Assembly (NCBI RefSeq): GCF_003584165.1
Contig: NZ_QXFJ01000027.1
Coordinates: 1-64,000 of the forward strand
Direction of reading: 5' to 3'
From: Flagellimonas aequoris
GTDB taxonomy: Bacteria; Bacteroidota; Bacteroidia; Flavobacteriales; Flavobacteriaceae
Length of the DNA stretch: 64,000 nt
Shown here: positions 3,349 to 29,570 of the stretch, piece after piece
How positions within the stretch are numbered: position 1 is the stretch's first letter
How the letters are laid out: each line of letters starts with the position of its first letter
Translations under genes and position numbers: made by a program
Notes under the pieces: generated by a model
What the model saw: only the letters and a program-made list of their open reading frames with translations
Databases searched by the model: none
Told to the model about the DNA's origin: nothing

Positions 3349-3390
3349 AGACGGTAAGGTCGTAATTAGTTTCGTGCAACGGAAGTGCAT

Positions 3391-3810
3391 TTATTGACCG
3401 CTGCATTTGTCGCAAATTCCCTTAATGACCAAATTGGCATTTTCTGCAACATACCCATCAGGTAGATTGATATGGGGAATCTTATGCTCAGTGAGACAGA
3501 CCGTTTCATCACAGTTATCGCAATGAAAGTGCAGGTGCAGATCTTGTTCCATTTCACAATTGCAACCTGGTTCGCACAGGGCATACTTTGAAATATTGGT
3601 GCCATCATCTATTTGGTGCACAATTCGTTTTTCCTCAAAGGTCTTCAGGGTCCGGTACAATGTGGTTCTGTCCGCTTTTGAGAAAGCGTTCTCCATATCG
3701 GTCAGGGCAATGGCCACTTCCTTTTCAGCCAAATATTTATAGATCAAAATACGCATCGCCGTTGGGCGTACACCTTTGTTTTCCAATGTTTTTTCAATTT
3801 CTGTCATCAT
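3391..3810 (-). CDS. Fur-family metalloregulator (Zur/Fur-like)
   Basis: A 139-aa Fur-superfamily repressor: an N-terminal winged helix with the recognition region DRTTLYRTLKTFEEKRIVHQI, then a dimerisation domain rich in His and Cys. The structural zinc site is visible as a HFHCDNCDETVC segment (CxxC) and a C-terminal CDKC. A second Cys pair (CEPGCNC) is present. It lies 12 bp after the czcB stop and 42 bp before the ATPase start, so it is co-transcribed with the efflux genes it probably controls. Which metal it senses cannot be told; zinc is the best guess from the partners. Confidence 0.88.
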   Translation of the reverse strand: MMTEIEKTLENKGVRPTAMRILIYKYLAEKEVAIALTDMENAFSKADRTTLYRTLKTFEEKRIVHQIDDGTNISKYALCEPGCNCEMEQDLHLHFHCDNCDETVCLTEHKIPHINLPDGYVAENANLVIKGICDKCSGQ

Positions 3811-3822
3811 ATTGTAATTTTA

Positions 3823-5022: not shown

Positions 5023-5026
5023 TTGT

Positions 5027-8000
5027 CTATTGTTTAAAATATTGTAATTCAAATACTGATTCTAGATAGTTGTCAAGAGCGTCAAGTGCATCCGTTTCCG
5101 TGTTTATGGCATCCCGAATAATCTGTGTGAACGCTGCATAGTCCACCGCACCCTCCGCGTAGGCCAACAACGCTCCCCTGCGCTGCTCTTGGGCAAGCGG
5201 CAAGGCCTTGTCCCTATAAAATTGCCACGATGCGCTCCATTTCCGATAGGCTTGCACCGCCTGCCGATATTCGGATTGCAGCTGGCGTTTGGTATAATCC
5301 GCATTGGTCTTTGCGATTTCACTTTCAATTTTGGCGGCCTTGGCTTGACTACGCTGTCCACCTGAAAACAAAGGAACCGAAATGCCGGCTTGATAGGTGT
5401 AGAACCCGCTATTGCCATTGACCTGTTGCAGTCCGCCCTGAAGGTTGAACTTAGGCAGCAAGTCAGCCCGTGCCGCATCGTATGTCGCCTCGGCCTCCTC
5501 GATGCGCCTTTGTGAAAGTTCCAGCGCTGGGTGTTTTCCCAAATCCCCGTCCCATCCCAAAACCGTTACCGCACTTTCATCAAGTTTTTCTGGAACGGAA
5601 TAGTAGATGTCCGAAACCAACCAAAGATTGAGCTTTTGCAGGGCAATGGCATAATCACTTTCGGCCTGTTGCAGTTGATTGTTGATTTGTAAGGCCTGAT
5701 TTGTGGCCGATGAATATTCCAGCCGGGAAATGGCCTCTACCTTGAAGTTGAGTTCTATTGCTCTTTTAAACTGTGAATAAATGGAATCCAGTTCACGGTA
5801 CAGTTCAAATTTCTGTCGTTGTCGATAGGCTTCTGACCAAGCCTTTTTGACCTCCTGTTCCACTTGCAGTTCGGAAAGGTCAAGAGCTGTCTCGGCCAAA
5901 GCGATGCGTTGTCTCTGCAAACGCCTTTTTGCACTGATGCCCAACAGGTCGATATTCTGTTGTCCAACCCCAACCAAGGTATAAATTCCTTGTCCGTCCA
6001 CAATTTCTTCGCCACCTGTGAAGACTTGGGTATTGCCAAGGTCGTAAGCCATTCCTTTTAGGGCGGTTTGTTTTTGGACCTCCCATTGTTTCGCTTTCAA
6101 CAGCGGGTAGTTTTTCCTGGAAACTTCCACCGCCTCTTCCAATGAAATAGCGGGCAGTGAATCTTTAGGTTGGATCTGTCGTGCATTTTCAAAACCTTTT
6201 TGCGCATGCATTTTGGCAGGCAGTGCGGTGGCGAACAAAAGAAGGACCATGACCACAGGGGTACCCCATTTCGGGTCGGGTTTCCTCATCCGTTTCGAAT
6301 GTCCCTCGACCCATTGGTAAAAGATGGGTAGGATAAAGAGGGTCAAGAGGGTCGAAGTTATCAAGCCACCAATGACCACGGTGGCCAAAGGTCGCTGTAC
6401 CTCTGCCCCGGCCGAAGCCGAAACGGCCATGGGAAGAAACCCTAAAATATCCGTAAAGGCCGTGAGCATAATGGGACGAATCCGTCTTTTGGTGCCTTCT
6501 ATAATTCTACCTTTAAGATTGGTCACACCTTCTTCCTTCAGTTCATTGAGACCACTTATCATGACGAGTCCGTTCAGAACGGCCACGCCAAAAAGCACGA
6601 TAAAGCCGACCCCCGCGGAAATACTAAAGGGCATATCCCTTAACCAGAGGGCGAACACACCGCCAATGGTGGCCATCGGGATGGCGAGGTAGATCATCAA
6701 GGTCTGTGGAAAGGACTTTAGCGCAAAATAAATCAATATGAAAATCAGGAACAAGGCAATAGGGACCACAGTTTGCAATCTATTGCTGGCGCGTTCCAGA
6801 TTTTCGAAAGCTCCACCATACCGAATGTAATATCCTGTGGGCAGGTCAAACTGGGCATCCAATTTTTCTTGGATATCCTCTACCACCGATTTTACGTCAC
6901 GGTCGCGAATATTGATGCCCACATAGGTCCGCCTATTGGTATTGTCACGGCTTATCTGCATCGGGCCTGGTTCATAACTTACCTCGGCAATTTCACGTAA
7001 TGGGATTTGCGAACCATTGGGCAGGTTGATGAACAGGTTCTGGATGTCCTCGATGCCTTGCCGGTTTTCCTTTTGAAGTCTTACGACCAGGTCAAACCGT
7101 TTTTCACCCTCGAAGATTACGCCTGCCTTTCCTCCTGCAAAGGCGGCCTGTACCACTTTATTGAGCTGTTCGATCTTTAGACCGTACTGTGCCAATTTAT
7201 TGCGGTTATAGTCAATGGTGATTTGTGGCAGGCCGTCCGTGGCCTCAACTTTCATATCTGCAACACCGGGAACGGTGGCAATGATTTCCCCCATTTCCTC
7301 AGCCTTGCTTGCCAATATGCCGAGGTCTTCCCCGAACAATTTAATGGCCACATCCTCACGAACACCCGTAAGTAGTTCGTTGAAGCGCATTTCGATAGGT
7401 TGGGTAAACTCAAAATTCACACCGGGAACGATACTGATGGCCTCCTTCATTTTTTCCACCAATTCATCCTTGCTTTCTGCAGATGTCCATTCATCCGTTG
7501 GTTTGAGGATAACGAAGACATCGGCGATATCCATGGGCATCGGGTCCGTTGGTACATCGGCGACACCGATACGGCTGAGAACGGTTTCCGCTTCGGGAAA
7601 TTCGGCCTTCACGATACGTTCAATCTTTGTCGTGGTTTCGATGGTTTCCGACAGGGAACTGCCGGGTTTCAAAATCGCGTGAAAGGCAATATCACCTTCG
7701 TCCAATTGCGGGATAAACTCACCGCCCATTCTCGTAAAGGCGAAAATGGCAATGGCAAAAAGGCCAAGGGCAATGCTTACGACCATTTTGGCCTTGGAAA
7801 GTGATTTGGTCAACAACGGTTCATATTTCTGCTCAATCCAATGCACGAACCTATCGCCATAGGATTGTTTTTTGGATTTTGGCGGCCGTAGGAACAATGC
7901 CGAAACCATGGGCACATAGGTAAGACACAATAGCATGGCCCCGATCATGGCGAAAATGAAGGTGAGGGCCATGGGCCGGAACATTTTCCCTTCGACGCCC

Positions 8001-9406
8001 TCCAAGGCTAAAATGGGCAGGAACACGATCAGAATGATCAGCTGGCCAAAGAAAGCGGCGTTCATCATTTTTTTGGAGGCCTTAGCGGCGATGTCATCCC
8101 GTGTTTCTGCACTAACGCCATTCTTTTTGACCACATAGGAGTACATTAAAAAAACGGTGCCCTCTACGATGATCACCGCACCATCCACAATGATTCCAAA
8201 ATCGATTGCCCCCAAGCTCATCAAGTTTGCCCATACGTCAAAAACATTCATCAGAATAAAGGCAAACAATAGGGATAAGGGTATGGTCGAAGCCACAATG
8301 AGTCCGCCACGCCAATTTCCCAATAACAAGACCAACACGAAGATCACGATAAGCCCACCTTCCAAAAGGTTCCCCGTTACCGTGCCTGTTGTCTCGGCGA
8401 TCAATTCGCTACGGTCAAGGAAAGGTTTGATGGACACCCCTTCAGGAAGGGACCGTTGTATCTGTTCCACACGTCGGGTCACGTTCTCGATCACCTCGTT
8501 GGAATTTGCCCCTTTGAGCATCAAGATCATTCCGCCCACGGCTTCGCCCTTTCCATCTTTGGTAAGCGCACCATAGCGTACCGCACTTCCCATGCTTACC
8601 TTACCTATATCCTTCACTTTGATGGGAATGCCATTAACGGCCTTGACCACCATGTTTTCAATATCCGATATGGTCCTGGCCAGCCCTTCACCACGAATGA
8701 AGTTGGCTTGGTGGTTACGCTCGATGTAGGCCCCACCTGTATTCTGGTTGTTGTTTTCAAGGGCCGAGAACACTTCTGTAATGGTAATACCAATGGCGCG
8801 AAGTTCGTCCGGGTCAACCGCCACTTCGTATTGCTTTTTGTTTCCGCCAAAGGCGTTTACCTCGACCACGCCGGGTACCATGGCCATCTGTCTCCGTACA
8901 ATCCAGTCCTGCATCGTTCGCAGTTCCGTTGCCGAATATTCACCTTGATGTTCATCATCTACTTCAAGGGTATATTGGTAGATTTCACCCAATCCCGTTG
9001 AAATTGGCCCCATAACGGGTTTGCCAAAGCCAGAAGGGATCTGTTCCTGAACCTCGGGCAGTTTTTCGGCTACAAGTTGTCTGGGCAAATAAGTGCCCAC
9101 CTCATCGTCAAATACAATGGTCACCACAGAAAGCCCAAAACGGGAAACAGAGCGGATTTCCTTGACATTGGGTAGGTTGCTCATCGCAACTTCCACGGGA
9201 TAGGTTACAAATTGTTCTATATCCTCCGTTCCCAGGTTGGGTGATTGGGTAATGACCTGTACTTGATTATTGGTGATATCCGGTACGGCATCGATGGGAA
9301 CTTGGGTCATGCTATAAACGCCCGCACCAATCAATGCGAGGGTCAGCAGACCTATAATAAATTTATTATTGATTGAAAAATCAATGATTCTGTTGATCAT
9401 GGACAA
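5027..9406 (-). CDS. czcA: CzcA-type HME-RND metal pump fused to a TolC-like outer-membrane channel domain
   Basis: 1459 aa, against about 1030 for a plain RND pump. Residues 1 to ~1040 are a complete heavy-metal RND transporter; the TM4 signature DFGIIVDGAVIIVE matches the divalent-cation (Czc) class rather than the Cu/Ag (Cus) class. A linker then holds a hydrophobic, signal-peptide-like segment at about 1050-1068 (VVMVLLLFATALPAKMHA). Residues ~1085-1459 are an outer-membrane efflux (TolC/CzcC) domain with long coiled coils and a QAGISVPLFSGGQRSQAKAA strand region. The inserted hydrophobic segment would return the chain to the periplasm. One uninterrupted frame supports a genuine fusion. 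It heads the operon after the small Cys-rich gene. Confidence 0.93.
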   Translation of the reverse strand: MSMINRIIDFSINNKFIIGLLTLALIGAGVYSMTQVPIDAVPDITNNQVQVITQSPNLGTEDIEQFVTYPVEVAMSNLPNVKEIRSVSRFGLSVVTIVFDDEVGTYLPRQLVAEKLPEVQEQIPSGFGKPVMGPISTGLGEIYQYTLEVDDEHQGEYSATELRTMQDWIVRRQMAMVPGVVEVNAFGGNKKQYEVAVDPDELRAIGITITEVFSALENNNQNTGGAYIERNHQANFIRGEGLARTISDIENMVVKAVNGIPIKVKDIGKVSMGSAVRYGALTKDGKGEAVGGMILMLKGANSNEVIENVTRRVEQIQRSLPEGVSIKPFLDRSELIAETTGTVTGNLLEGGLIVIFVLVLLLGNWRGGLIVASTIPLSLLFAFILMNVFDVWANLMSLGAIDFGIIVDGAVIIVEGTVFLMYSYVVKKNGVSAETRDDIAAKASKKMMNAAFFGQLIILIVFLPILALEGVEGKMFRPMALTFIFAMIGAMLLCLTYVPMVSALFLRPPKSKKQSYGDRFVHWIEQKYEPLLTKSLSKAKMVVSIALGLFAIAIFAFTRMGGEFIPQLDEGDIAFHAILKPGSSLSETIETTTKIERIVKAEFPEAETVLSRIGVADVPTDPMPMDIADVFVILKPTDEWTSAESKDELVEKMKEAISIVPGVNFEFTQPIEMRFNELLTGVREDVAIKLFGEDLGILASKAEEMGEIIATVPGVADMKVEATDGLPQITIDYNRNKLAQYGLKIEQLNKVVQAAFAGGKAGVIFEGEKRFDLVVRLQKENRQGIEDIQNLFINLPNGSQIPLREIAEVSYEPGPMQISRDNTNRRTYVGINIRDRDVKSVVEDIQEKLDAQFDLPTGYYIRYGGAFENLERASNRLQTVVPIALFLIFILIYFALKSFPQTLMIYLAIPMATIGGVFALWLRDMPFSISAGVGFIVLFGVAVLNGLVMISGLNELKEEGVTNLKGRIIEGTKRRIRPIMLTAFTDILGFLPMAVSASAGAEVQRPLATVVIGGLITSTLLTLFILPIFYQWVEGHSKRMRKPDPKWGTPVVMVLLLFATALPAKMHAQKGFENARQIQPKDSLPAISLEEAVEVSRKNYPLLKAKQWEVQKQTALKGMAYDLGNTQVFTGGEEIVDGQGIYTLVGVGQQNIDLLGISAKRRLQRQRIALAETALDLSELQVEQEVKKAWSEAYRQRQKFELYRELDSIYSQFKRAIELNFKVEAISRLEYSSATNQALQINNQLQQAESDYAIALQKLNLWLVSDIYYSVPEKLDESAVTVLGWDGDLGKHPALELSQRRIEEAEATYDAARADLLPKFNLQGGLQQVNGNSGFYTYQAGISVPLFSGGQRSQAKAAKIESEIAKTNADYTKRQLQSEYRQAVQAYRKWSASWQFYRDKALPLAQEQRRGALLAYAEGAVDYAAFTQIIRDAINTETDALDALDNYLESVFELQYFKQ

Positions 9407-9464
9407 GGGTATTGATTCAGTTTATATTCTTACTGGGCGCATTGATGAAAAGCAACGCACGATA

Positions 9465-9512
9465 TTGACGTAACCATGAAAAAGTCACGTCAAAACAGGA
9501 TAGTTTTATCCT
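9465..9512. promoter_or_regulatory. Two inverted repeats in front of the efflux operon
   Basis: Between the small Cys-rich gene and czcA lie TTGACGT (9465-9471) with ACGTCAA (9487-9493), 15 bp apart, and a tight hairpin AGGATA-GTTT-TATCCT (9497-9512). Either could be a regulator site for the Fur-type protein of the operon, or the hairpin could act as an attenuator. This is inferred from position and symmetry only. Confidence 0.35.
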
Positions 9513-9524
9513 ATAAAAACTGGA

Positions 9525-9833
9525 TCATGCCCGAGGGGGCTGTAAAAGAGAAGGTGGAATATCCTTGCCGAGGTCATCAAAATGGGCAAAGAATTCGTCT
9601 GGGATTTCTGGCTGGTACGGTTCAAATGCGACAAGCCCAAAATCTATGGTGTGAACGTGGCAACAATGACATTGACAGAAAGGCGAGCAAAGTTCACAAT
9701 CGTCACCTTGGTCGCCGTCAGAATCGACTACCGAAACAGTTTGGCAATCGTCAGAGGCATTCCCTGAATCACTACAAGGCACCACGTTGAGCGCCAAGAA
9801 GTATATTGTTAATATGATTGTCAAAAATTTCAC
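9525..9833 (-). CDS. Small Cys-rich exported protein (DUF6660-like) ahead of czcA
   Basis: About 102 aa, taking a GTG start at 9833 that gives a clean signal peptide (KFLTIILTIYFLALNVVPC). After it comes an acidic stretch and a dense Cys/His motif, CELCSPFCQCHCCHVH, then a Pro-rich tail. Small proteins of this kind commonly precede CusA/CzcA genes in Flavobacteria (DUF6660). The function is unknown; binding of a soft metal in the envelope is the obvious guess. The frame is open further upstream, but those residues do not look like a signal sequence. Confidence 0.7.
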   Translation of the reverse strand: MKFLTIILTIYFLALNVVPCSDSGNASDDCQTVSVVDSDGDQGDDCELCSPFCQCHCCHVHTIDFGLVAFEPYQPEIPDEFFAHFDDLGKDIPPSLLQPPRA

Positions 9834-9837
9834 GGGG

Positions 9838-9845
9838 CAAAGATA
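9838..9845 (-). promoter_or_regulatory. Possible -7 box (TAnnTTTG) immediately before the small Cys-rich gene
   Basis: On the minus strand TATCTTTG matches the Bacteroidota -7 consensus and ends 4 bp before the GTG start at 9833. A TTTG at 9871-9874 could be the -33 element, but the 25-bp spacer is long. If used, the transcript would be almost leaderless, so this call is tentative. Confidence 0.3.
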
Positions 9846-9978
9846 AAAAAATCCAAGTGCAACTCTATTGCAAAGAATGGTTCTTAAAAGGAACTCTTTT
9901 TGGACCAATAAAAAGTAGTTCCAAACTTCATTATTGGAGTTTTCCCCCTAAAATATCAGGTCATTACTAGAGTATGAA

Positions 9979-10055
9979 AAAAGTGACATCGGCAACGGCC
10001 TTATGCCGTCCCTTTCCCGAGAAATATTTTCCGGGTTTATCTTTGCGCAGTATTG
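9979..10055 (+). repeat. Imperfect ~75-bp direct repeat, copy A
   Basis: It shares AAAAGTGACA, then a 5-bp stem hairpin ACGGC-CTTAT-GCCGT followed by CCC, a (t/c)CCGA segment, CGGG(T/C)TTATCTTT and a final TATTG with the copy at 18903-18982. Both copies are in the same orientation. They bracket the block from the dnaE-type gene to the long parB gene. Confidence 0.7.
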
Positions 10056-10079
10056 ATCGGAATACGTCCTTACTCGCTT

Positions 10080-13061
10080 TTATTTGGCCAATAGCGCTCC
10101 CGATCCCACTTGTCTCGGGTCAGGTTTCAAGGGTTGTTTGACGGTCGTAACCACCTCCAGACTGAAATGCCCGAACTCTTCGGTCACCGTTCCATGGCAT
10201 AGATAGGTCCCCTTTCCATGAATGGGTGTGGATGCCATTGTTTGGGGAAAGTGGACACAGTCAAAAAAATGCCCTTCCAGATCGAGCATGGTGGTAAAGC
10301 GCATCGTGTCCCCTTTGGATGTGGTGTTCAGTCGGGTATGCACTAGGGAACCATAGATCCATATCCTTTGGTTGACATGGGCCTCAAAATCACCGGCGGT
10401 CAATCGGCTCCTTACCTTGCCGTCCATCAATTCATAATACCCACATAGCGGAAATCCCAAGAGTTCTATTTGGTCATAGGCATCCTCAATAGGATGGGAA
10501 GGTAAGTTTGGTAATGTAAAATGCCGGTGGTTGGGTTTAAAGAGCAATTTCTGGACCGTATCCTTTCGATGGGCCCTGGTCTTGAACACGGCCTGCCAAA
10601 GCACTTGTTTCTTGGGTACCCCAAACACACGAAAGGCATCGATACGTACCAAGATGGTCAACTGTTCGATGGCAATCGGGACACGGTCGATAAAATCATC
10701 AAAATCCCGGAACTTCCCATGGAGCTGCCTTTCGTTCAGGATGCGTTGGATGACCAAACGTTCCAAACTCCGAAGCTGCCCCAGCCCCAAATAGATGTGC
10801 TTCCCATAGATGACATTGACATGATCACTGCGGTTGATACAGGGCGGATGGATAATTCCTCCCCACATCTTAGCCTCATGGACATAGAGCTCTGTATCAT
10901 AGAACCCTCCCCCATTGTTGAGCACGGCTACCATAAATTCCAGGGGAAAGTAGCATTTCAGATACAGGCTCTGGTAGCTCTCCACCGCATAGGAAGCGGA
11001 ATGTCCCTTGGCAAAGGCATAGCCCGCAAAACTCTCGATCTGTTCCCAGACCATTTGGGTCAAGGCAGCATCGTGCCCCCTTTGTTTGCAGTTTTCAAAA
11101 AACTTGAGTTTCACTGCTTGGAATTCCTCCCGGGAACGGAACTTTCCGCTCATCCCCCGTCGCAACACATCGGCCTCCCCTAGGTCGAGTCCTGCAAAGA
11201 GATGGGCCACCTTGAGCACATCCTCTTGATAGACCATGATCCCATGGGTCTCCGGCATGATCTCCAACAGGATGGGATTGGCCTCCTTGCGGCGTTCCGG
11301 TTCCCGCTCCCTGCGGATATATTCATCCTTCATCCCCGAGGAGGATACCCCTGGACGGATCACGGAGCTGGCCGCCACCAGTCCCAAGTAGTCATGGGTC
11401 CGTAGCTTTTTCATCAGCCCCCGCATGGCTGGGGATTCCACATAATAGGCCCCTATCGCCCTTCCTTGGCTCAACAGCCGATTGATATTGGCATCCTGTT
11501 TCATGGCCTCCACGCTCTTGATGTCCCAAAGCATGGCATCGGGTCGGTTGTCCTTGATCACCTCAACCGCCTCCTTGATCTTGGCCAATCCCCGTTGCCC
11601 AAGGATATCGAACTTGAACAGGCCTACATCCTCGGCAATGATCATATCGAACTGCACCGTCGGAAACCCTTTGGGCGGCAGGGTCGTGGCCGAATAGTAA
11701 TGCTCGGAACGGTCCAGAATCAAGATCCCCGAGGAATGCACACTGATGTAATTGGGCATCCCATGGATATAGGTGGCGTATTTCAGCACCAATCGGGCCA
11801 GTTCGTCCAAGCTTCCTTGCTCATACCGACCTGCACTGAGCTTATCGATTTCCTCGGTGGGCAGACCGAACACCTTGCCCAGTTCCCGAACAGCGGCCCG
11901 GTATTTAAAGGTGTTGTAGGTTCCCAATAGGGCCACATGCTCGAAACGTTCAAAAATATAGGCCGTGACATCGTCCCGGTCCCAGGTGGAAAAATCAATG
12001 TCAAAATCCGGAGGGGAGGCCCTAAAGGGATTGATGAACCGTTCAAAATACAGGTCCAGTTCAATGGGATCCACATCGGTGATCCCGATCAGGTAGGCCA
12101 CCAGACTGTTGGCCCCACTCCCCCTGCCCACATAGGGATACCCTTTGGACTTGGCATAGGAGACGATATCATGGTTGATCAAAAAATAGGACACGAAGTC
12201 CAGTTCCTGAATGGTACGCAGTTCCCGGAACATCCGCTCCTTGACCTTTTCCGTGGGATGGGCATAGCGTCGAGGCAGCCCATCCAATGCCAGTTCCCGC
12301 AACCGCTCCACATCCAAGGCCTTGGACGCCAAAAAACGGGACTGGTTCTGGGAAACCCGCTCACTTCCAAACCCAAAGGCAATGGTACAGGAGTCCATCA
12401 ACCGCTGCGTATTCTCCCAGATATGCGGAAAATCAACCAAGGCTTTTTTTAGTTCCTCCATGGACCGAAGGGTATCAGAGGGTCTGGCCTCCTCGGACTG
12501 GGGAAGTTTACTCAACAGTGTGTTCAATCCTATGGCCCGAAGCAACCGATGGGTATTGAAATCCTTTTTGTTACGAAAGCTCACGGGCTGTAACAACACC
12601 AATCTATCGGTATAATCCCGGTACCGGGAGAACCGTAATTTCCGGAGCTCTTCGACGGATACCCCAATGTACTCATAAGCTCGGAAGTCTGTCCGTTCCT
12701 CCTCCTGGATCTTCTCGAAGGGATAGATGACATGGACATGTTCGAATATTGGAGCCACGGAGGGAATGGATGTTCCCTTATGCAAATGTTCGGATAGAAA
12801 GGCATTGATCTCCCGAAACCCTTCATTGTTTTGTGCCAGGCCCACAAACTCCTGTACGTTCCCGTTCCGAAAATCGATGCCCAGAATGGGACGTATTCCC
12901 TGCTCATGGGCCAGTCGCACAAAGTTCATCCCTGCCGAACTGTTGTTGATATCGGTCAGGGCCAAGGTTTCCACCCCATGGGAACAGGCCAACTCCAAGA
13001 GCTCCGTTTCGGAAAGCACCCCGTAGTTCAAGGAATAATAGGTATGGCAGTTCAAGTACAT
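10080..13061 (-). CDS. dnaE: DNA polymerase III alpha-like polymerase (DnaE2/error-prone type)
   Basis: About 993 aa from the ATG at 13061, shorter than a replicative DnaE (~1150). It has an N-terminal PHP domain (NCHTYYSLNYG, ALTDINN), then the C-family polymerase core with the catalytic Asp pair in PPDFDIDFSTWDRDDV and the third Asp region FKFDILGQRGLAKIKEAV. Next are a helix-hairpin-helix region (INRSDHVNVIY onward) and an OB-fold-like C-terminus (IWIYGSLVHTR). The start is one base after the dinB stop, so the two polymerases form an operon. The pairing with a Y-family polymerase and a nearby SRAP gene suggests damage tolerance (translesion synthesis) rather than replication. Confidence 0.9.
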   Translation of the reverse strand: MYLNCHTYYSLNYGVLSETELLELACSHGVETLALTDINNSSAGMNFVRLAHEQGIRPILGIDFRNGNVQEFVGLAQNNEGFREINAFLSEHLHKGTSIPSVAPIFEHVHVIYPFEKIQEEERTDFRAYEYIGVSVEELRKLRFSRYRDYTDRLVLLQPVSFRNKKDFNTHRLLRAIGLNTLLSKLPQSEEARPSDTLRSMEELKKALVDFPHIWENTQRLMDSCTIAFGFGSERVSQNQSRFLASKALDVERLRELALDGLPRRYAHPTEKVKERMFRELRTIQELDFVSYFLINHDIVSYAKSKGYPYVGRGSGANSLVAYLIGITDVDPIELDLYFERFINPFRASPPDFDIDFSTWDRDDVTAYIFERFEHVALLGTYNTFKYRAAVRELGKVFGLPTEEIDKLSAGRYEQGSLDELARLVLKYATYIHGMPNYISVHSSGILILDRSEHYYSATTLPPKGFPTVQFDMIIAEDVGLFKFDILGQRGLAKIKEAVEVIKDNRPDAMLWDIKSVEAMKQDANINRLLSQGRAIGAYYVESPAMRGLMKKLRTHDYLGLVAASSVIRPGVSSSGMKDEYIRREREPERRKEANPILLEIMPETHGIMVYQEDVLKVAHLFAGLDLGEADVLRRGMSGKFRSREEFQAVKLKFFENCKQRGHDAALTQMVWEQIESFAGYAFAKGHSASYAVESYQSLYLKCYFPLEFMVAVLNNGGGFYDTELYVHEAKMWGGIIHPPCINRSDHVNVIYGKHIYLGLGQLRSLERLVIQRILNERQLHGKFRDFDDFIDRVPIAIEQLTILVRIDAFRVFGVPKKQVLWQAVFKTRAHRKDTVQKLLFKPNHRHFTLPNLPSHPIEDAYDQIELLGFPLCGYYELMDGKVRSRLTAGDFEAHVNQRIWIYGSLVHTRLNTTSKGDTMRFTTMLDLEGHFFDCVHFPQTMASTPIHGKGTYLCHGTVTEEFGHFSLEVVTTVKQPLKPDPRQVGSGALLAK

Positions 13062-13062
13062 G

Positions 13063-14277
13063 CTATTGTTGTCTATGGGCCAATAAGATGGGTGGTTGTC
13101 CGTCAAAGGGGTTTCCGCCTCTTCCTATACTATGGGCCCCCATGGCCGAGGCCCGCATCAAACTGGATTCCCCAAATCGATTCCGTACACGATCCATGGC
13201 CTGATAGAGGTTGAGCAGTTTTTCGTCATCCGCGAACAGGTCGATCTGGTAATACCCACCAACGATATGACTGTAGTTGACCCCAACAAGACGAATCAGC
13301 ATCCTTCGGTCATAAAGGGAGGTAAAGAGTTCCTTCACCAAGGGTACCAACACATGGTCCGCAGAAGTATAGGGAACCCGTTTCTGCTTGGTGTAGGTCT
13401 TGAAATCACTGTACCGGATCTTCACACTCACACAGCCCGTCATCTTATTGGCCCTTCGGAGTTGGTAGGCCAGGTTCTCGGCCATGGCGAACAAGGTGGT
13501 CTCCAGTTTGACCATATCGGTGGTATCCTTTCCATAGGTACGTTCCGTAGAAATGGACTTCCGTTCATGAAACGGGAGCAAGGGGGAATTGTCCAGCCCC
13601 TGGGCCCGCATCCAGATGGTCCGTCCATGCAACCCAAAGGCGCTTTCCAGCATCTCCAAGGGCAGTTGCTGTACGGTCTGTATGGTAGTCACCCCCATAT
13701 TGGACAAAAGCCCATAGGTTTTCTCCCCCACGGAGGGCAGTTTACGAATGTGTAAAGGCGCCAGGAACTCTTTCTCCAGTCCAAGATCGATCTTCATCTG
13801 GTTGTTGGGCTTGGCCTCCCCGGTGGCCACTTTGGAGACCACCTTGTTCTGGGAGAGTCCAAAGGAAATAGGCAATCCCGTTTCCCTCAAGATCCGTTGT
13901 CGAATTTCCGAGGCGTATTTGTAACAGCCAAAGAAACGGTCCATCCCGGAAAGGTCGGCATAGAACTCGTCCACACTGGCCTTTTCAAAGACCGGGACAC
14001 TCTCCTTGATAATCTCGGTCACATTGTCCGAGAACTTCATATAGGTCCCTGCATTGCCCTTAATCACAGTGGCCTCCGGACACAACCTCCGGGCCACTTT
14101 CATGGGCATCCCTGAATGCACCCCAAAACGCCGGGTCTCATAGCTACAGGCCGCGACCACCCCTCTGTCCCCCAACCCACCGACCAAGAGGGGCCGCTTC
14201 ATCAGACGGCTGTCCAGTAGTCGTTCACAGGAGACGAAGAAGGTATCCAGATCGATATGGAGAATGGTGGGTTTCAT
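13063..14277 (-). CDS. dinB: Y-family DNA polymerase (DinB/Pol IV-like)
   Basis: 404 aa. It carries out translesion DNA synthesis. The palm metal ligands are visible in HIDLDTFFVSCERL near residue 8 and SVDEFYADLSGMD near residue 102. ATGEAKPNNQM and the helix-hairpin-helix region KLPSVGEKTYGLLSNMGV follow, then a little-finger domain. It lacks an obvious C-terminal clamp-binding motif. It is the first gene of a two-gene operon with dnaE and diverges from the SRAP gene across a 116-bp region with a palindromic operator and a good flavobacterial promoter. Confidence 0.93.
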   Translation of the reverse strand: MKPTILHIDLDTFFVSCERLLDSRLMKRPLLVGGLGDRGVVAACSYETRRFGVHSGMPMKVARRLCPEATVIKGNAGTYMKFSDNVTEIIKESVPVFEKASVDEFYADLSGMDRFFGCYKYASEIRQRILRETGLPISFGLSQNKVVSKVATGEAKPNNQMKIDLGLEKEFLAPLHIRKLPSVGEKTYGLLSNMGVTTIQTVQQLPLEMLESAFGLHGRTIWMRAQGLDNSPLLPFHERKSISTERTYGKDTTDMVKLETTLFAMAENLAYQLRRANKMTGCVSVKIRYSDFKTYTKQKRVPYTSADHVLVPLVKELFTSLYDRRMLIRLVGVNYSHIVGGYYQIDLFADDEKLLNLYQAMDRVRNRFGESSLMRASAMGAHSIGRGGNPFDGQPPILLAHRQQ

Positions 14278-14300
14278 AAAATGTTGGATTTATTCCTATA

Positions 14301-14346
14301 ATTTGGAAAATATCCAAATGTACGGAAAGGGACGAGCCGTTTCAAA
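14301..14346 (-). promoter_or_regulatory. dinB promoter overlapped by a palindromic operator
   Basis: On the minus strand, TTTG at 14343-14346, a 20-bp spacer and TACATTTG at 14315-14322 match the Bacteroidota -33/-7 consensus (TTTG, TAnnTTTG). The -7 box overlaps the right arm of a perfect inverted repeat ATTTGGA-AAATA-TCCAAAT at 14301-14319. A repressor bound there would block dinB-dnaE and could also affect the divergent SRAP gene. No LexA-like gene is visible in the cassette. Confidence 0.65.
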
Positions 14347-14393
14347 ACTTTAACAATTTTGCCTATCTTAATACGGCATAATTCAACCTCAAC

Positions 14394-15149
14394 ATGTGTT
14401 ACTCGACCAGACAGACCCGGGAACGGAAGGAGCTGGAAAAACTCCTTTCTGTCAAGGCCATGTACGGTGACCTGGACACCGACCTGGAACTCATTTATTT
14501 CCACGCCAACGGCTGGAGCCATCCTGTGATGTGGACTTTGGGCCAGGAAGAGCCCTACAATATGCTCCCTGCGATGTGGGGCATCATGCCCCCAAAGGAA
14601 AAGCAGGAAAATTACACGGAGTATTTCAAGAACCCAAAAACCTTTGGGGGACTGAATGCCAAATCCGAAAAGCTCTTTGACCACTTCGTGTACCGGTACT
14701 GTTGGGAGCACCAACGCTGTATCATTCCCGTGGACGGATTCTTCGAACCACACAATACGAAAGTGAAAGTCAAGGGAAAGGATTTTAAAGTTCCGTTTTA
14801 TTTCCATAGAAAGAACGGCGACCCCATATACCTAGCGGGCATCTATACCAACACGGCCGATGGACGGAGGACCTTTGCCGTACTCACCAAGGACGCCACC
14901 CCCATGTTCGAGGAAATCCACAATGAAAAGAAAAGGCGACCCGTCATCATTGATGATGAAAACTTGGATGCTTGGTTACATAACGGCAACAATAAATCAG
15001 ATGTTCAAGATCTTATCGATGACGATCTATGGGAAGGTGATCTGGAAGCCTATCCCGTCACCAAGGACCTCTATAGTAGAAGTGTGGATTCCAACTATCC
15101 GGGCATCATTGAAAAAGTGGACTACGAAGAGGTGTCCATACCCTATTGA
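14394..15149 (+). CDS. SRAP (SOS response-associated peptidase, YedK/HMCES-like)
   Basis: 251 aa. SRAP proteins crosslink to abasic sites in single-stranded DNA through the amino-terminal Cys. Here the protein begins M-C-Y-S-T-R, placing the catalytic Cys2 correctly. Other family features are an Asn in the NAKSEKLFD segment, the acidic PVDGFFEPHN region (GFYEW in many homologues) and an EEIHNEKKRRPVIID segment with the catalytic His. It diverges from the dinB-dnaE operon, consistent with shared damage control. Confidence 0.9.
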   Translation: MCYSTRQTRERKELEKLLSVKAMYGDLDTDLELIYFHANGWSHPVMWTLGQEEPYNMLPAMWGIMPPKEKQENYTEYFKNPKTFGGLNAKSEKLFDHFVYRYCWEHQRCIIPVDGFFEPHNTKVKVKGKDFKVPFYFHRKNGDPIYLAGIYTNTADGRRTFAVLTKDATPMFEEIHNEKKRRPVIIDDENLDAWLHNGNNKSDVQDLIDDDLWEGDLEAYPVTKDLYSRSVDSNYPGIIEKVDYEEVSIPY

Positions 15150-15260
15150 CCTTTCCTTTTGACCATGTTCATGGGTACGGACAGGGAATATCCCCCATTA
15201 AGGGTTCGCTAGCCCCGGAAGTGCAAGATCTTCAACGGTCAACCCAGACAGATGTACTTA

Positions 15261-15393
15261 TATTTCATGAAAAATATATAAAAATCATCGTTTTTCACGC
15301 CAAGTAATTGTTTTTCATGGTATATTTGTCATTATATTTCACGTCATCATATGAAAAATAATGATTTTTCACAGAAAATAACGGTTTTTCATG
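15261..15393 (+). promoter_or_regulatory. Cluster of TTTTTCA(T/C) motifs around the fic promoter and start
   Basis: Copies of (T)TTTTCA(C/T), mostly followed by G, occur at about 15291, 15311, 15336, 15365 and 15385, with inverted copies at 15267-15275 and 15351-15360. A -7 box TATATTTG at 15321-15328 lies in the middle, about 23 bp before the fic ATG. The motifs continue into the first 15 codons. The arrangement looks like a multi-site operator for autoregulation; the binding protein is unknown. Confidence 0.55.
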
Positions 15394-16898
15394 GCCGCAC
15401 CTTACCTGAGGAAGGTTTCTTGGTAGGTCAGTCCCTTTTGATTGCCACAATGGAGAATCAATTTGATGTAGCGGTTCCCCTGCCTGATATATTGGCCATG
15501 GCAACGGAGAAGCACCAACGCTACGATACGGACCAATGGCAAGTGTTCACCATAAGGCACAAACCCAAGGACGACCTGAAAAGCCATTTGGTCTTTGCCC
15601 TTAAATACGAGCCCTTGGACCTATATCTCCTCAAAAGGTTTTTCGAGTTGACCGGGGATGCCATCATACACCAAATGTTGGAAGAGGAGCCCACGGGGCA
15701 ATACACTAGAAGGGCGTGGTTTCTATACGAATGGCTGACCGGAATAACCCTTGACGTACCGAACCTGAACAAGGGCACTTATGTAACGGTGGTGGACCCC
15801 AACCTACAATATACGGCCGAGCCCGAGAATTCCACACGGCATCGCGTCAAGAACAACCTGCCCGGGGTCCCGGGGTACTGCCCGATGATCCGACGGACGG
15901 CAAAACTGGATGGGTATATTGCCAAGGACCTATCTGAAACCATCGAAAAGGGATTGGGCAAACGGGACAAGGATCTTATTCGAAGGACCGCTGCTTTTTT
16001 ATTGTTGAAGGACTCGAAGGCATCCTTTGCCATAGAAGGGGAACATCCCCCGAGCATGCGGGCAAGGAATTGGGGAAAAGCCATAGGCCAATCGGGCAAG
16101 TCCCCTTTGGGCATACAGGAGATCGAACGGTTACAGCATATTGTCATCGGCAACAAAAAACTGAGGCATATGGGCATCAGGACCGGGGAAGGCTTTATTG
16201 GGGAGCACGATAGGGAGACCCTCTCCCCCTTGCCCGACCACATCTCTGCCAAGGCCAAGGACCTTCCTCTTTTGATGCAAGGGTTGTTCGGCACGAACGA
16301 GCTGTTGCAGAAGTCTCGGTACAATCCTGTATTGGCCGCGGCCACCATCGCATTTGGCTTTGTTTTTATCCATCCCCTATCCGATGGCAACGGGAGGATA
16401 CATCGCTATATCATCCACCATTTGCTTACCCGGATGGGGTATACCAAGAGAGGTATGATATTCCCCATATCCTCTGCCATTCTGGAACGGATTGATGAAT
16501 ATCAGGATATTCTGGAGCATTTTTCCTCGCCAAGGGTCGATTTGATCGAATGGGAGGAAACACAAGACCATAACATCGATATCCTGAACGAAACCATTGA
16601 TCTATACCGGTACTTTGATTTGACCAAACAAGCGGAATTCCTGTATACCTGTGTGGAAGAGACCATTGAAAGGATCATACCGGAAGAATTGGACTATTTG
16701 GAAAAATACGATCGGATGACAAACCTTATCAATGCCCGTGTGACCTTACCGGATACCAAAGTCGATCTTTTGATCAAGTTTCTGAACCAGAATGAAGGTA
16801 TATTGTCCAAAAAAAGAAGGGAAAAGGAATTTGCGGAATTGACAGATGCTGAAATCCAGGAAATTGAAGATTCATTCCAAAGTATTTTCCAAGGTTGA
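15351..16898 (+). CDS. Fic-domain protein with N-terminal inhibitory motif (class II)
   Basis: 515 aa. Fic enzymes transfer AMP or related groups from nucleotides to target proteins. The Fic motif is HPLSDGNGRIHRY near residue 341, with Leu in place of the usual Phe but all catalytic residues (His, Asp, Asn, Arg) kept. An (S/T)xxxE(G/N) inhibitory sequence, SFAIEG, lies near residue 224 ahead of the Fic core, as in class II proteins. The N-terminal ~180 residues are unassigned, and the C-terminal ~110 residues are helical and charged. It follows SRAP after a 201-bp gap containing its own motif-rich promoter. No separate antitoxin gene is visible. Confidence 0.88.
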   Translation: MKNNDFSQKITVFHGRTLPEEGFLVGQSLLIATMENQFDVAVPLPDILAMATEKHQRYDTDQWQVFTIRHKPKDDLKSHLVFALKYEPLDLYLLKRFFELTGDAIIHQMLEEEPTGQYTRRAWFLYEWLTGITLDVPNLNKGTYVTVVDPNLQYTAEPENSTRHRVKNNLPGVPGYCPMIRRTAKLDGYIAKDLSETIEKGLGKRDKDLIRRTAAFLLLKDSKASFAIEGEHPPSMRARNWGKAIGQSGKSPLGIQEIERLQHIVIGNKKLRHMGIRTGEGFIGEHDRETLSPLPDHISAKAKDLPLLMQGLFGTNELLQKSRYNPVLAAATIAFGFVFIHPLSDGNGRIHRYIIHHLLTRMGYTKRGMIFPISSAILERIDEYQDILEHFSSPRVDLIEWEETQDHNIDILNETIDLYRYFDLTKQAEFLYTCVEETIERIIPEELDYLEKYDRMTNLINARVTLPDTKVDLLIKFLNQNEGILSKKRREKEFAELTDAEIQEIEDSFQSIFQG

Positions 16899-16982
16899 TG
16901 GGTAACCTGACCCAGTTTGGGTTCCCTAACTATTCAAATCCCTATCTGTGGTAGGACACCGGCATGGTTCGACCAAAATAAA

Positions 16983-17010
16983 AAGGGTTCGCTTTCCCGA
17001 ACCCTTCTTT
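16983..17010. terminator. Bidirectional terminator between fic and parB
   Basis: A perfect 9-bp stem, AAGGGTTCG (16983-16991) and CGAACCCTT (16998-17006), with a 6-nt loop. It is followed by a T-rich run on the plus strand and A-rich sequence on the other side. It separates the convergent fic and parB-like genes. Confidence 0.8.
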
Positions 17011-17027
17011 TGTACCATTTGGAAGCC

Positions 17028-18824
17028 CTATCCCTCCAATATTTTGGCCTGCCGTTCTAAACTGGCCACCCTTTCCTTGATCCGTTCCTCCCGTTTTTGA
17101 CGCTTTTCAGTATAGGATTTTTCGATTCCCAAAATCTTCTCCTTGTAAAAGGATTGCATTGCCACATAAAAGGATCGGTTGGTCAAATCATTGGAGTGGT
17201 TGCTTTCCCCAAGGTGTACCTGTCGGGTCAACAGGAACCGGAGCAGTTTATACAAGGTCTCCTTTTTGAAACCCTGTTTGAACCGGGCCACCCGTTCCCC
17301 ATCGGATAACTTGGAATCCTCGCCGAAGAATTCCCCAAAATGTTCCCTTTGGCTATAATACCCGATGTTGTTCTCGAACAGGGAAATGGCAATGGCCACC
17401 ATTTCATCCGTGGACAAAGGCTTTTTCAGGTTGATATAATCGGTCTCACGTATCATGTCCACGACTTCCTTGAACTGGTTGTTGTTCTCGATCTGTTTTT
17501 TCCGCAATTCCCGTGTATTGATCTTGATGATCTGCTCCTCCGGGGTACACTCGGACATTTTGCGTTGCTCCAAGGCCTTGGTACCTGAACTTCCACTATG
17601 GGTTTCTTCCCTGACCTTCACAAATACCGGCCGGGTCAAATAGGTGTCCGTTTCCAGCAGGATACCCTTTTCAAATCCAAGGTCCACGGCCTTGTCCCAT
17701 GCCTCCTTTTCCTCCGTGAAGGATTCCAGGGCCTCTTTCAGGAATTCACCCAACTCTTCCTCGGTATATTCATAGTGTCGGTGCTCCTCCCTAATGTGAT
17801 TCATGGTAGGTTCTATGGGCTCCTTTAAAATGTCCAGCCCATTGGTCAAATGCACCGCTAGGCCCTCCTTTTCCATTTGGGCCATGACCCATTGGTTGCG
17901 TTCCTCGTCCACCCGGTATTTGTTGATGTTGGGCACCAGTTTCAATCCTTCCTTTTTCACGCTTTTCAATAGCTGCATAAAGGTCTTGGTCTTTTTGTTC
18001 TCAAAACAGGAGGTCCGGGTACAGACCATCTTCCCATCACCGAACAAATTGCCCTGATTGGCAGCATTGAAGGGACAGGTATGGCAAGCCCCGGCTTTGG
18101 GAAGCAACGTCTTATCCGACAACCCAAAAGGGGCTTTGGACAGATCGAAGGTGCGGCTTTCGATCATCCGTTTGATCCGATGTTCCTGGAATTCGTCTTC
18201 TAGGCTTTCCAACAGCATCAGTTGTTCTCCGGGTTCAAAAAGGGCCACGGCCACCCCTAGGGAGAGGGTCATTTCCCCACTGCGGATAAAGGCCTTGAAT
18301 CCCTCGATCAATCCTGCCAACTTGATGCGTTGCCGGATATAGTTCTCAGATCGGCCCAGACGTTTTGCAATCTCCCCGGGTTCGTAACGATCCAACAAAA
18401 ATTGGATGGCCTCGGCCTCCTCCGTGGGTTCCACATCCTTGCGCTGTAGGTTCTCGATGATCTGGACCTCCAGAATCTCAGTGTCCCTATAGTCCCTTAC
18501 CATGGCAGGGATAGTGGTCAATCCTGCCAATTTACTGGCACGATACCTTCGCTCACCCATGACGATGATAAAACCTTCGTCGGATTTTCGTACGGTGATC
18601 GGCTGCAGCACCCCATGTTCGGCAATGCTCTGTTCCAAATGATTGAGACTTTGCTCATCAAAGGTTTTTCGGGGTTGGTCTGGGTCCGGGAAAACCGAAT
18701 CGATTCCCAACAACTGGATCTGTGGAACGTTTTCCACCTTCTCCACAGTTTTGGTTTGTTCCGACTTTGAACCTTGGTTGTTACCTGCTTTACGTGTCGC
18801 TCTCTTCTTTGTTTGTGCTTCCAT
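17028..18824 (-). CDS. Long ParB/RepB/Spo0J-family protein with Cys-rich insert
   Basis: About 598 aa from the ATG at 18824, twice the length of a chromosomal ParB. The ParB/Srx nuclease-like domain is clear (DPDQPRKTFDE, VMGERRYRASKLAGLTTIPA, IENLQRKDVEPTEEAEA), followed by a KorB-type helix-turn-helix (GEIAKRLGRSENYIRQRI). A zinc-binding-like stretch CHTCPFNAANQG continues with CTRTSC. This Cys arrangement is known in ParB proteins of plasmids and integrative elements. The C-terminus is charged coiled coil. The partner ATPase is not adjacent, so a role in element maintenance or regulation is inferred. The chromosomal parAB pair is elsewhere in the window. Confidence 0.85.
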   Translation of the reverse strand: MEAQTKKRATRKAGNNQGSKSEQTKTVEKVENVPQIQLLGIDSVFPDPDQPRKTFDEQSLNHLEQSIAEHGVLQPITVRKSDEGFIIVMGERRYRASKLAGLTTIPAMVRDYRDTEILEVQIIENLQRKDVEPTEEAEAIQFLLDRYEPGEIAKRLGRSENYIRQRIKLAGLIEGFKAFIRSGEMTLSLGVAVALFEPGEQLMLLESLEDEFQEHRIKRMIESRTFDLSKAPFGLSDKTLLPKAGACHTCPFNAANQGNLFGDGKMVCTRTSCFENKKTKTFMQLLKSVKKEGLKLVPNINKYRVDEERNQWVMAQMEKEGLAVHLTNGLDILKEPIEPTMNHIREEHRHYEYTEEELGEFLKEALESFTEEKEAWDKAVDLGFEKGILLETDTYLTRPVFVKVREETHSGSSGTKALEQRKMSECTPEEQIIKINTRELRKKQIENNNQFKEVVDMIRETDYINLKKPLSTDEMVAIAISLFENNIGYYSQREHFGEFFGEDSKLSDGERVARFKQGFKKETLYKLLRFLLTRQVHLGESNHSNDLTNRSFYVAMQSFYKEKILGIEKSYTEKRQKREERIKERVASLERQAKILEG

Positions 18825-18902
18825 GATCTTTGGATTTTGGTTAAACAATATTTGAGCGGAAACCAAGCGGAAGACAAATTTTTGGAGTGGCAAGGAAACG
18901 GA

Positions 18903-18982
18903 ATAAAAAGTGACAGGGGAACGGCTTTATGCCGTCCCTTGTCCGACAAACCATTTGCGGGCTTATCTTTCGAAAACTATTG
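18903..18982 (+). repeat. Imperfect ~75-bp direct repeat, copy B
   Basis: The counterpart of the copy at 9979-10055. It contains AAAAGTGACA, the hairpin ACGGC-TTTAT-GCCGT, GTCCGA, a CGGGCTTATCTTT segment and CTATTG. It lies about 80 bp upstream of the parB-like start. Agreement between the copies, estimated by eye, is about three quarters. Confidence 0.7.
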
Positions 18983-19290
18983 GAAGATAAAAAAGAAATC
19001 TACCCCTCCAGAAGGCCCATAAGGGTATTATAGTTCCAAACCTTAGATGGATATCCCTTGTACGCATGTTTGAAACCGAAGGTTTTTCTTTGAAAACCCA
19101 TAGAACCCTAAAAACCAAAGGCTACAATATCAATCAGGCACGAACCTAGGTTATGGGAAGCGTATCCGCCGTCCTAGTCCTGAAAATGACTTATTTGAGG
19201 GCGGGGCGGACAAACGAGGGGACGATACGGCATTGGGGTATTGAACGGTAATGAAATACTACTGGGAAGATTGCCAAATTCAAAAAATAG
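18983..19290. other. Non-coding stretch upstream of the parB-like gene
   Basis: About 300 bp with no convincing open frame on either strand. A short inverted repeat AAACC-GAA-GGTTT is present near 19074. No tRNA, known riboswitch or IS end was recognised. Confidence 0.4.
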
Positions 19291-19322
19291 GTAAAACAAA
19301 AGCCCATCGTTTCCGATGAGCT
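19291..19322 (-). terminator. Terminator downstream of the DUF2703 gene
   Basis: The stem AGCCCATCG (19301-19309) / CGATGAGCT (19314-19322), with one G-T pair, has a 4-nt loop. On the minus strand it is followed by TTTTGTTTTAC. It ends the leftward metalloid transcript. Confidence 0.7.
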
Positions 19323-19392
19323 TAATAAGGTCTTTTCTTGTATGAGGTAAATCTCATCTAACAGAACCTAAGGCGGTTCACCCAATCATTCA

Positions 19393-19866
19393 TCAATGGC
19401 ATCCGCAGTTGGAATCCGCGGTCACTTCTCCTTTTAAGTGTTTTAGAATGTAAGGGGACAAGGTTATTTCCCCATGGTCATTTTTGGGTTCAAAATAGCC
19501 TTTGAGCAATACCTCGATTAAGATTTCTTTATTGGGTTCTCCCATTGTAGCTCCATTCCAAACCCATTCCCTGGCTTCCGGACTGTCTTCCAAATGTTCA
19601 GGATGGAAATCGAGGTTGCCGACCCTTATGGTAGGGGAAGCAACAATATGGGCTTTTTCGGCTTCCTCTATCGTTTTAATCATGGTTGAACTGAACAAGA
19701 TTTCGCAGTTCAAATGATCAAAGAGTTCTTGAACTTCTTGAATCGCCGATAGCAATACACCTTGAACAGAATCACAGGCTGAGCAAGTACCTTCCCCAGT
19801 TGTTGGCATTCCCACTTGAAAAAGGGTCACTCTCAATGCATTTTTTGTCTTTACTTCCATGTTCAT
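19393..19866 (-). CDS. DUF2703 thioredoxin-like protein
   Basis: 157 aa (an internal ATG at 19860 is an alternative start). DUF2703 proteins are thioredoxin-fold and recur in mercury and arsenic resistance loci. An active-site-like CSACDSV (CxxC) near residue 28 and a Cys-rich end (SNCGCH) are visible. There is no signal peptide, so it should be cytoplasmic. It lies downstream of a SigZ-like sigma factor and the permease, 68 bp from the former. Its biochemical role is not established. Confidence 0.75.
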   Translation of the reverse strand: MNMEVKTKNALRVTLFQVGMPTTGEGTCSACDSVQGVLLSAIQEVQELFDHLNCEILFSSTMIKTIEEAEKAHIVASPTIRVGNLDFHPEHLEDSPEAREWVWNGATMGEPNKEILIEVLLKGYFEPKNDHGEITLSPYILKHLKGEVTADSNCGCH

Positions 19867-29348: not shown

Positions 29349-29490
29349 GTGTTCTCGCTTTAAGTGAAACATTGGTTGAAGCGAAAGTCAAATCACACGA
29401 AAAATCAATAATGGAAGTACAATTTAGGGAATTTTTCCCGACAAAAATAGGACACTCTATAGGACATCCTCACCGATGGTTTCAGATGGA

Positions 29491-29528: not shown

Positions 29529-29570
29529 AATTAATTAAGGTTTTACTTAGTGTCATAAAACCATGGTTCG

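Follow-up and report, generated by a model that had tools for sequence, protein, structure and literature searches.

A putative single-stranded-DNA promoter repeated in conjugative elements of Flavobacteriaceae

A gene block between two direct repeats

The window analysed here is a 64,000-nucleotide stretch of Flagellimonas aequoris (contig NZ_QXFJ01000027.1, positions 1 to 64,000 of the forward strand). It contains an island in which genes for a DnaE-type polymerase, a DinB-type polymerase, a SRAP protein, a Fic/DOC protein and a long ParB lie between two copies of a repeat, here called REP1 and REP2 (Table 1). An initial annotation had described these five genes as bracketed by two imperfect repeats in the same orientation, and this was confirmed by the Pfam assignments of the genes and by the 81–82% identity of the repeats. 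The longest direct-repeat pair listed between 9000 and 20000 comprises 9991-10044 and 18917-18970 (54 bp ungapped, 81% identical, same orientation, 8,926 bp apart), and blastn extended it to 9978-10044 and 18905-18970 (~67 bp, 82% identical). Apart from these two, no copies scored in the window's assembly; two further matches with E values of 0.06-0.08 look like noise. The pair is more than a chance similarity, as a blastn-type search recovered the same sequence from 30 of 99 related genomes; these 30, among them the window's own, all belong to its genus.

The ACGGC-n5-GCCGT hairpin and the segment TTATCTTT, previously noted as shared, are indeed present in both repeats, but the hairpin forms one section of a longer inverted repeat. 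Nor are the two copies equivalent: the 5' arm of the inverted repeat is present in REP2 and absent from REP1. An Rfam search of 9300-19500 gave a single match (E 0.38), far under its gathering score.

Table 1 Features of the window discussed in the text
Feature	Position	Strand	Remarks
Metal-efflux cargo	1381-9406	-	P-type ATPase, Fur-like, HlyD, RND-OEP (outer-membrane efflux)
Sequence in place of the REP1 5' arm	9955-9978	+	by eye, like the right end of IS110-family insertions in other copies
REP1, spacer and 3' arm only	9979-10056	+	5' arm absent
DnaE-type polymerase	10080-13106	-	Pfam; TIGR00594 above cut-off
DinB / Pol IV-type Y-family polymerase	13063-14277	-	Pfam; PRK02406 above cut-off
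SRAP (SOS response associated peptidase)	14394-15149	+	Pfam PF02586; divergent from dinB
Fic/DOC protein, accessory	15351-16898	+	Pfam PF02661; between SRAP and parB
parB, 598 aa	17028-18824	-	Pfam ParB_N and HTH_ParB; TIGR00180 above cut-off
REP2, intact putative single-strand promoter hairpin	18846-18982	+	5' arm 18846-18906; spacer/loop 18907-18925; 3' arm 18926-18982
Putative promoter in the REP2 3' arm	18939-18971	+	TTG 18939-18941; 22-nt spacer; TATCTTTC 18964-18971
Island tyrosine integrase	28074-29372	-	adjoins tRNA-Pro (29570-29644)

Distribution and gene neighbours of the repeat

A sequence-only model (A1, R1), built from 27 copies, was used to search the genus and the family. It found the repeat in 44 of the 71 genus genomes (Flagellimonas/Allomuricauda, to judge by the names of relatives; 147 listed matches) and in 63 of 397 sampled genomes of the family, representing 54 of 237 genera. 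In an order-wide sample it was present in 7 of 296 genomes, all belonging to the same family. Genomes hold up to nine matches, and single elements carry several copies. Twenty large loci, 60 copies with flanks and six more stretches were analysed, giving 121 distinct copies.

Behind the 5' arm, the longest frame starting within 700 nt belonged to one of four gene families in 93 of the 121 copies: ParB (44), DUF932 (25), c8 (16) and c26 (8). Most DUF932 frames (19/25) start within 200 nt of the far end of the repeat, and 5/25 start more than 500 nt away. The remaining 28 copies, some of which have a replaced 5' arm, stand before singletons, other small groups or cargo, or have no gene behind them. 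Searches of PHROGs and NCBIfam gave no name for c8, and for c26 only a weak PHROG of unknown function; in several loci c8 is followed by c21, SSB (single-stranded DNA-binding protein) and RadC, or by some of these. The association also held when approached from the protein side, as loci found by ParB similarity alone have the repeat directly upstream in 30 of 32 cases (exceptions L149 and L168).

The spacing between the repeat and these genes is fixed. Among 100 copies scoring above 38 bits, 86 have a readable TATTG base, 8 of which lack a frame within 400 nt; in 72 of the other 78, the first ATG of a frame of at least 50 codons lies 20-23 nt past the hairpin base (ParB 31/33, DUF932 15/16, c8 13/15, c26 12/12, other 1/2). 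That four unrelated gene families share this geometry is the strongest single argument for the interpretation developed below. In the window, the coding sequence of parB starts with the ATG at 18824, 21 nt beyond the REP2 hairpin base, within a 621-aa open frame that begins at a TTG further upstream.

Hairpin structure and co-evolution of the arms

Full copies are ~137-nt imperfect inverted repeats that read CAATATT...GGCAAGGAAACGGAATAAA, then a spacer AGTGAC...ACGGC, then TTTATGCCGTCCCTTGTCC...TAnCTTTCGGGAATATTG, the last part being an imperfect reverse complement of the first. The arms were parsed in 85 of 87 copies, of which a motif rule classed 65 as having the 5' arm and 20 as arm-less. 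Own arms pair at -20.4 kcal/mol on average compared with -9.9 kcal/mol when the 5' arm is shuffled (DNA parameters), and 58 of the 65 full copies beat all 20 of their own shuffles. A few full copies were placed among the 20 arm-less ones by the rule, e.g. L037 at -18.1. The arm duplex of REP2 reaches -18.2 kcal/mol, while that of REP1 (-7.1 kcal/mol) is no better than with shuffled arms.

The two arms co-evolve. Native arms pair at -21.3 kcal/mol and arms swapped between families at -14.9 kcal/mol when 7 families are distinguished, a value as low being reached in 8 of 10,000 permutations; with 17 families this occurred in none of 10,000. A family-wide swap test (57 non-redundant copies, 12 families) gave -19.8 versus -15.4 kcal/mol, again with 0/10,000. 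Compensatory changes are seen in GGCAAGG/CCTTGTCC versus TCAAAAGG/TCTTTTGA and in CAAAATTTTG/ATTTTGCG versus CAGGCTGTG/ACAGGCTGCG. In alignment A3, the two counted stems are 98.1% paired, as against 35-49% when slid, and the central stem is 98.6% paired. One stem pair (n = 33) is CG in 18 sequences and changed on both sides in 13, mostly to AU. The left-right stem was also recovered by alifold from both A2 and A3.

Separately, a palindrome of the CCTGCCTGCCGGCAGGCAGG type is inserted in the spacer of three copies (L031:14040-14149, L020:1466-1575 and L035:9338-9448).

A promoter motif in the 3' arm

Flavobacterial promoters are described as having a -7 box, TAHHTTTG, from -12 to -5, a much less evident -33 motif and a mean leader of 33 nt (PMC6847099). 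A promoter of this Bacteroidota type, TTG/TTT-N19-24-TAnnTTK, was found in the 3' arm of 63 of the 65 full copies, where shuffles lead one to expect 5.5; the boxes are 21-23 nt apart and the nn positions variable. The stricter form TTG...TAnnTTT occurs in 47/65 (expected 2.1). In the gene-ward sense of the 5' arm, by comparison, even the looser form was found in only 3/65 (expected 8.3). The predicted promoter thus points away from the gene in double-stranded DNA and would point into it once the strand folds. Its predicted start lies at or beside the paired AATATTG/CAATATT base, which would leave a leader of ~27 nt. For REP2, whose -7 numbering follows PMC6847099, transcription is predicted to start near 18976, close to the hairpin base.

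Orientation relative to the relaxase

A DUF5712 relaxase gene is present in 56 of the 71 genus genomes, on elements that also carry a BfmA-type mobilization gene and a type IV coupling protein (T4CP). By hand tally, the repeat occurs in 43 of the 56 genomes with the relaxase and in 1 of the 15 without it. Among the first 150 relaxase matches listed, 68 of the 147 copies lie within 15 kb of a relaxase gene and 79 have none that near. Of these 68, 66 are on the strand opposite the relaxase, 60 of them on its 5' side. The six opposite-strand copies on the 3' side are ~4.7 kb (five) or 11 kb (one) away, and the two others share the orientation of the relaxase. Copies within 40 kb of each other face the same direction in 68 of 71 pairs.

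The window's island is also present in the complete genome G017, where the features follow one another as T4CP(-), relaxase(-), a diverged repeat(+), RadC(-), SSB(-), metal cargo, REP1(+), dnaE(-), dinB(-), SRAP(+), fic(+), parB(-), REP2(+), arsenic/mercury genes and integrase. Such an arrangement is that of a leading region whose genes are read from the strand entering the recipient, and a leading-region position of the repeat is supported both by this order and by the relaxase side (60/68). A TraG-type ATPase frame, which may or may not belong to the same element, lies ~30 kb from the G017 relaxase.

Gene orientation fits a folded strand that is the transferred strand (T-strand), the latter as inferred from the relaxase side. 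The signs of a strand preference are mixed: the duplex is more stable on the T-strand in 55 of 57 copies, with an asymmetry of 3.2 kcal/mol versus 0.7 kcal/mol for shuffled arms, but the types of mismatch favour neither strand.

Loss of the 5' arm in REP1

In other copies (L018/L052, L074, L075) an IS110-family element interrupts the 5' arm, always at the same point, after ACGGAAT. Its transposase was recognised in L074 by Pfam, and the right end of the element reads AATAGAGTAT; both junctions are visible in G045 (L018/L052). The left end of the element holds AGAAACGGAAT, which matches the target in 10 of 11 letters, and this near-copy suggests that insertion into the 5' arm is guided, as by a guide RNA. 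The sequence that replaces the 5' arm of REP1 ends TACTAGAGTATG. REP1 is probably the relic of such an insertion, its 5' arm having been lost in this way, which would leave the window island with one working copy, REP2. A similar right end was also seen in L028, behind ArsR/MerT-type genes.

Proposed mechanism

Anatomy, arm co-evolution, promoter motif and direction, ATG spacing, relaxase polarity and the common gene families were all read from the sequences by computation. Together, they make it likely that the repeat is a single-stranded-DNA promoter of flavobacterial conjugative elements that works like the Frpo/ssi (single-strand initiation) sites of plasmids F and ColIb-P9. During conjugation, one strand (the + strand of the window) would enter the recipient with its 5' end first, and each full repeat on it would fold into a long imperfect hairpin. 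The 3' arm would then act as the non-template strand of a Bacteroidota housekeeping promoter and the 5' arm as its template. RNA polymerase would start near the paired hairpin base and run off into the gene 5' of the hairpin, so that REP2, as a putative single-strand promoter, would probably drive parB. Beyond parB lie dinB and dnaE, which are read the same way; fic and SRAP, encoded on the other strand, separate them from parB, and one transcript may reach dinB and dnaE. Synthesis of the complementary strand would remove the hairpin and leave the promoter facing the wrong way, and expression would for that reason be a pulse on entry. In this manner, the repeat would switch on the first-needed genes of the element while its DNA is still single-stranded and on its way into a new marine host.

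With similar confidence, we regard the block between REP1 and REP2 as part of a leading region of establishment genes and not as a cassette bounded by recombination sites. Folding in the cell, transcription from single strands and its timing, the reach of one transcript to dinB and dnaE, the identity of the transferred strand and the position of the origin of transfer (oriT) are what we infer from these features.

Comparison with known systems

Single-strand promoters have been documented for enterobacterial plasmids and are best known from those of E. coli. Plasmid F carries two, Frpo1 and Frpo2, which according to PMC9849209 are 92% alike, ~5 kb apart, located upstream of ygeAB and ssb, and both required for early expression in recipients. 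Their transcripts are reported to serve translation or priming (PMC8406263). In the F record, the leading region holds SSB, a 652-aa ParB and, further on, a 95-aa protein and a DUF932 protein; from the gene order, the last two appear to be ygeA and ygeB behind Frpo1. The flavobacterial proteins are distant relatives of those of F (ParB 24% identical over 179 aa, DUF932 26% over 144 aa). Upstream of ssb and of the DUF932 pair, the T-strand of F folds at -119 and -124 kcal/mol, respectively, and the other strand at -112 and -114 kcal/mol.

As described for the Frpo (ssi) of F and ColIb-P9 (PMC9849209, PMC8406263), the flavobacterial repeats are imperfect inverted repeats in a leading region, with similar copies a few kb apart. 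They likewise stand upstream of genes for SSB, a long ParB and DUF932, are predicted to fold on the presumed T-strand and have their promoter boxes in the stem. Unlike Frpo, which exceeds 300 nt, the repeat measures ~137 nt; it is built on a Bacteroidota -33/-7 promoter, is multi-copy, sits on integrated elements with DUF5712 relaxases and is known from sequence alone. A further likeness is to the leading-region anti-defence islands of Samuel 2024 (PMC11541004), in which leading genes are read from the T-strand, SSB and Frpo-like promoters occur, and translesion polymerase genes (umuCD) are common at the island edge. That study searched with five known Frpo/ssi sequences and a sigma-70 consensus, and its candidates include some from an insect-gut metagenome element; its main text does not contain the words Bacteroid-, Bacteroidota or Flavobact-. 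In the titles and abstract openings that our searches of the open PMC literature listed, we found no single-strand promoter in Bacteroidota.

DinB-DnaE2-SRAP mutagenesis operons are a known gene set. The same three gene families stand side by side in the window; what differs is that a conjugative element here links them to the gene for a long ParB, which follows a putative single-strand promoter. As a separate observation, genes in an order like that of a leading region occur on a Flagellimonas plasmid (L147, NZ_CP092416.1). They encode a Y-family polymerase, UmuD, SRAP, a JAB-domain protein, a methylase, SSB and a ParB sharing 50% identity with the window's, but no repeat of this family was detected on the plasmid.

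On balance, we lean towards the joint view that conjugative elements of Bacteroidota evolved multi-copy single-strand promoters independently of F/ColIb, on their own sigma-factor consensus, and that these promoters switch on SSB, the long ParB, DUF932 and the error-prone polymerase set on entry. If so, single-strand transcription would be a general solution for conjugative DNA, with ParB and DUF932 as core establishment proteins across phyla: their position behind unrelated single-strand promoters in two phyla would point to a shared need during DNA entry. An arm rule (-7 box of the host on the 3' arm facing away from the gene, 5' arm serving as template, ATG ~21 nt from the base) could then find such promoters in other phyla and help to catalogue genes for establishment and anti-defence, the unknown families c8 and c26 among them.

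Weighing the interpretation

Several results weigh against a single-strand promoter. Minimum-energy folding of single copies favours small local hairpins and hardly beats shuffles (z of -1.14 for REP2 and -1.03 for REP1). Variation is slight or absent at most pairs of the core stem, and the local ACGGC/GCCGT hairpin is 97.9% paired too, yet without two-sided change. The swap test weakens with the coarsest groupings (407/10,000 with 4 families; 1,626/10,000 with 3), and the mismatch count revealed no G.T excess on the T-strand (153 G.T versus 183 A.C). At least a dozen copies have no 5' arm and pair at background level, and 2 of the 65 full copies, those nearest to the relaxase, lack the -7 box as scanned. 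No repeat is present on the F. marinaquae plasmid that encodes a ParB relative at 50% identity (best E 0.06). Moreover, the repeat has no sequence similarity to Frpo in the F leading region (best E 0.15 with nhmmer, 1.0 with blastn), which makes it an analogue of Frpo and not a sequence member. Finally, scanning both strands of F Frpo for -35/-10 boxes revealed no promoter, and the arm geometry could therefore not be checked on a known case.

The constant position upstream of four gene families would also suit a double-stranded regulatory region, in which the inverted repeat, as is common for operators, would combine with a promoter to control an island regulon from ordinary double-stranded DNA. 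Some copies do have a co-directional frame on the right-hand side (at least 60 aa, within 300 nt, in 47/95). This side is mixed, its largest groups numbering 7, 6 and 5, with the group of 6 probably representing antisense frames of dnaE. We consider such a regulon improbable, since the gene-ward sense is poor in promoters (5' arm 3/65) and leaves only ~21 nt before the ATG, and the one good promoter faces away from the gene, toward the 3' end of dnaE in 12/95 copies or of an integrase in 10/95. Nor would an operator need compensatory change over arms of ~55 nt. Less probable still, by about half, is a site that primes complementary-strand synthesis, with gene expression secondary. Polarity and folding fit priming as well as transcription into a gene, and Frpo transcripts are credited with both roles, but a fixed 20-23 nt spacing to the start codons of four unrelated families would be needless for priming alone, and the several copies per element also speak against it.

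The initial annotation had proposed that the block is exchanged as a unit by recombination at the repeats, and direct repeats flanking a block are easily mistaken for transposition borders. One breakpoint does fall within a repeat, where REP1 lost its 5' arm, and the cargo between SRAP and parB varies. However, comparable arm-less junctions that can be resolved elsewhere are IS110 ends and not the products of repeat-by-repeat exchange, and the copies keep promoter and pairing features for which homologous recombination would have no use. Family members precede parB, DUF932 and other genes with or without the polymerase set; copies upstream of DUF932, c26, c8 and of parB with no polymerases in the stretch show that the repeat does not always stand at both ends of this gene set, and they go part of the way towards the refutation named in the initial annotation, a repeat unrelated to these genes. 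The shared orientation of copies on one element explains why the repeats are direct. Integron attC and dif-like sites were also considered and set aside. From the copies and junctions compared, recombination borders seem very improbable to us, and a promoter active on the entering single strand accounts better for the repeat.

The island and its gene content

The 21 large loci (20 fetched and the window) were selected because they hold the repeat. The genes dnaE, dinB, SRAP and parB were all called in 8 of them and three of the four in 3 more, which bears out the earlier description of the block as a module inside an island, here a conjugative one. The fic gene is confined to a near-identical island (4/21). 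The DnaE-type polymerase of the window is probably error-prone, although the error-prone subfamily model scored below its cut-off. Five loci from named genomes of Flagellimonas and Allomuricauda encode a ParB identical to the window's, and the island has therefore probably spread recently.

The left end of the island is absent from the window because the contig starts inside an IS21 element (1-1000). The closing end of contig C29 of the same assembly, which carries a relaxase and T4CP, is the same IS21 end as the window start. Joining C29 to the window through the shared IS21 was considered and dropped, as both contig ends carry the same IstB side.

Besides the metal-efflux cargo, which occupies the side where several other elements carry c8, the island holds arsenic/mercury-type genes. 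At 5027-9406, an RND transporter and an outer-membrane efflux domain are fused in a single 1459-aa frame. The RND efflux operon adjoins the parB-side repeat in some elements (L030:12973-17999, L026:7081-11427) and the dnaE-side repeat in the window (5027-9908), runs away from the repeat in each of these cases, and is preceded by DUF6660 in L030 and by c13, a DUF6660 relative, in the window.

Adjacent to the island in G017 is a second element (L109:10028-17617) whose Fic protein shares 47% identity with the window's; genes for SSB, RadC, relaxase and T4CP come after it. Fic is thus a recurrent member of leading regions. In the window, 15261-15392 lies upstream of the fic start and extends across it; six motifs of the form TTTTTCAC/T or TATTTCAC/TG are spaced there at 20-30 nt, two of them next to ATGAAAAA, and may form an operator array.

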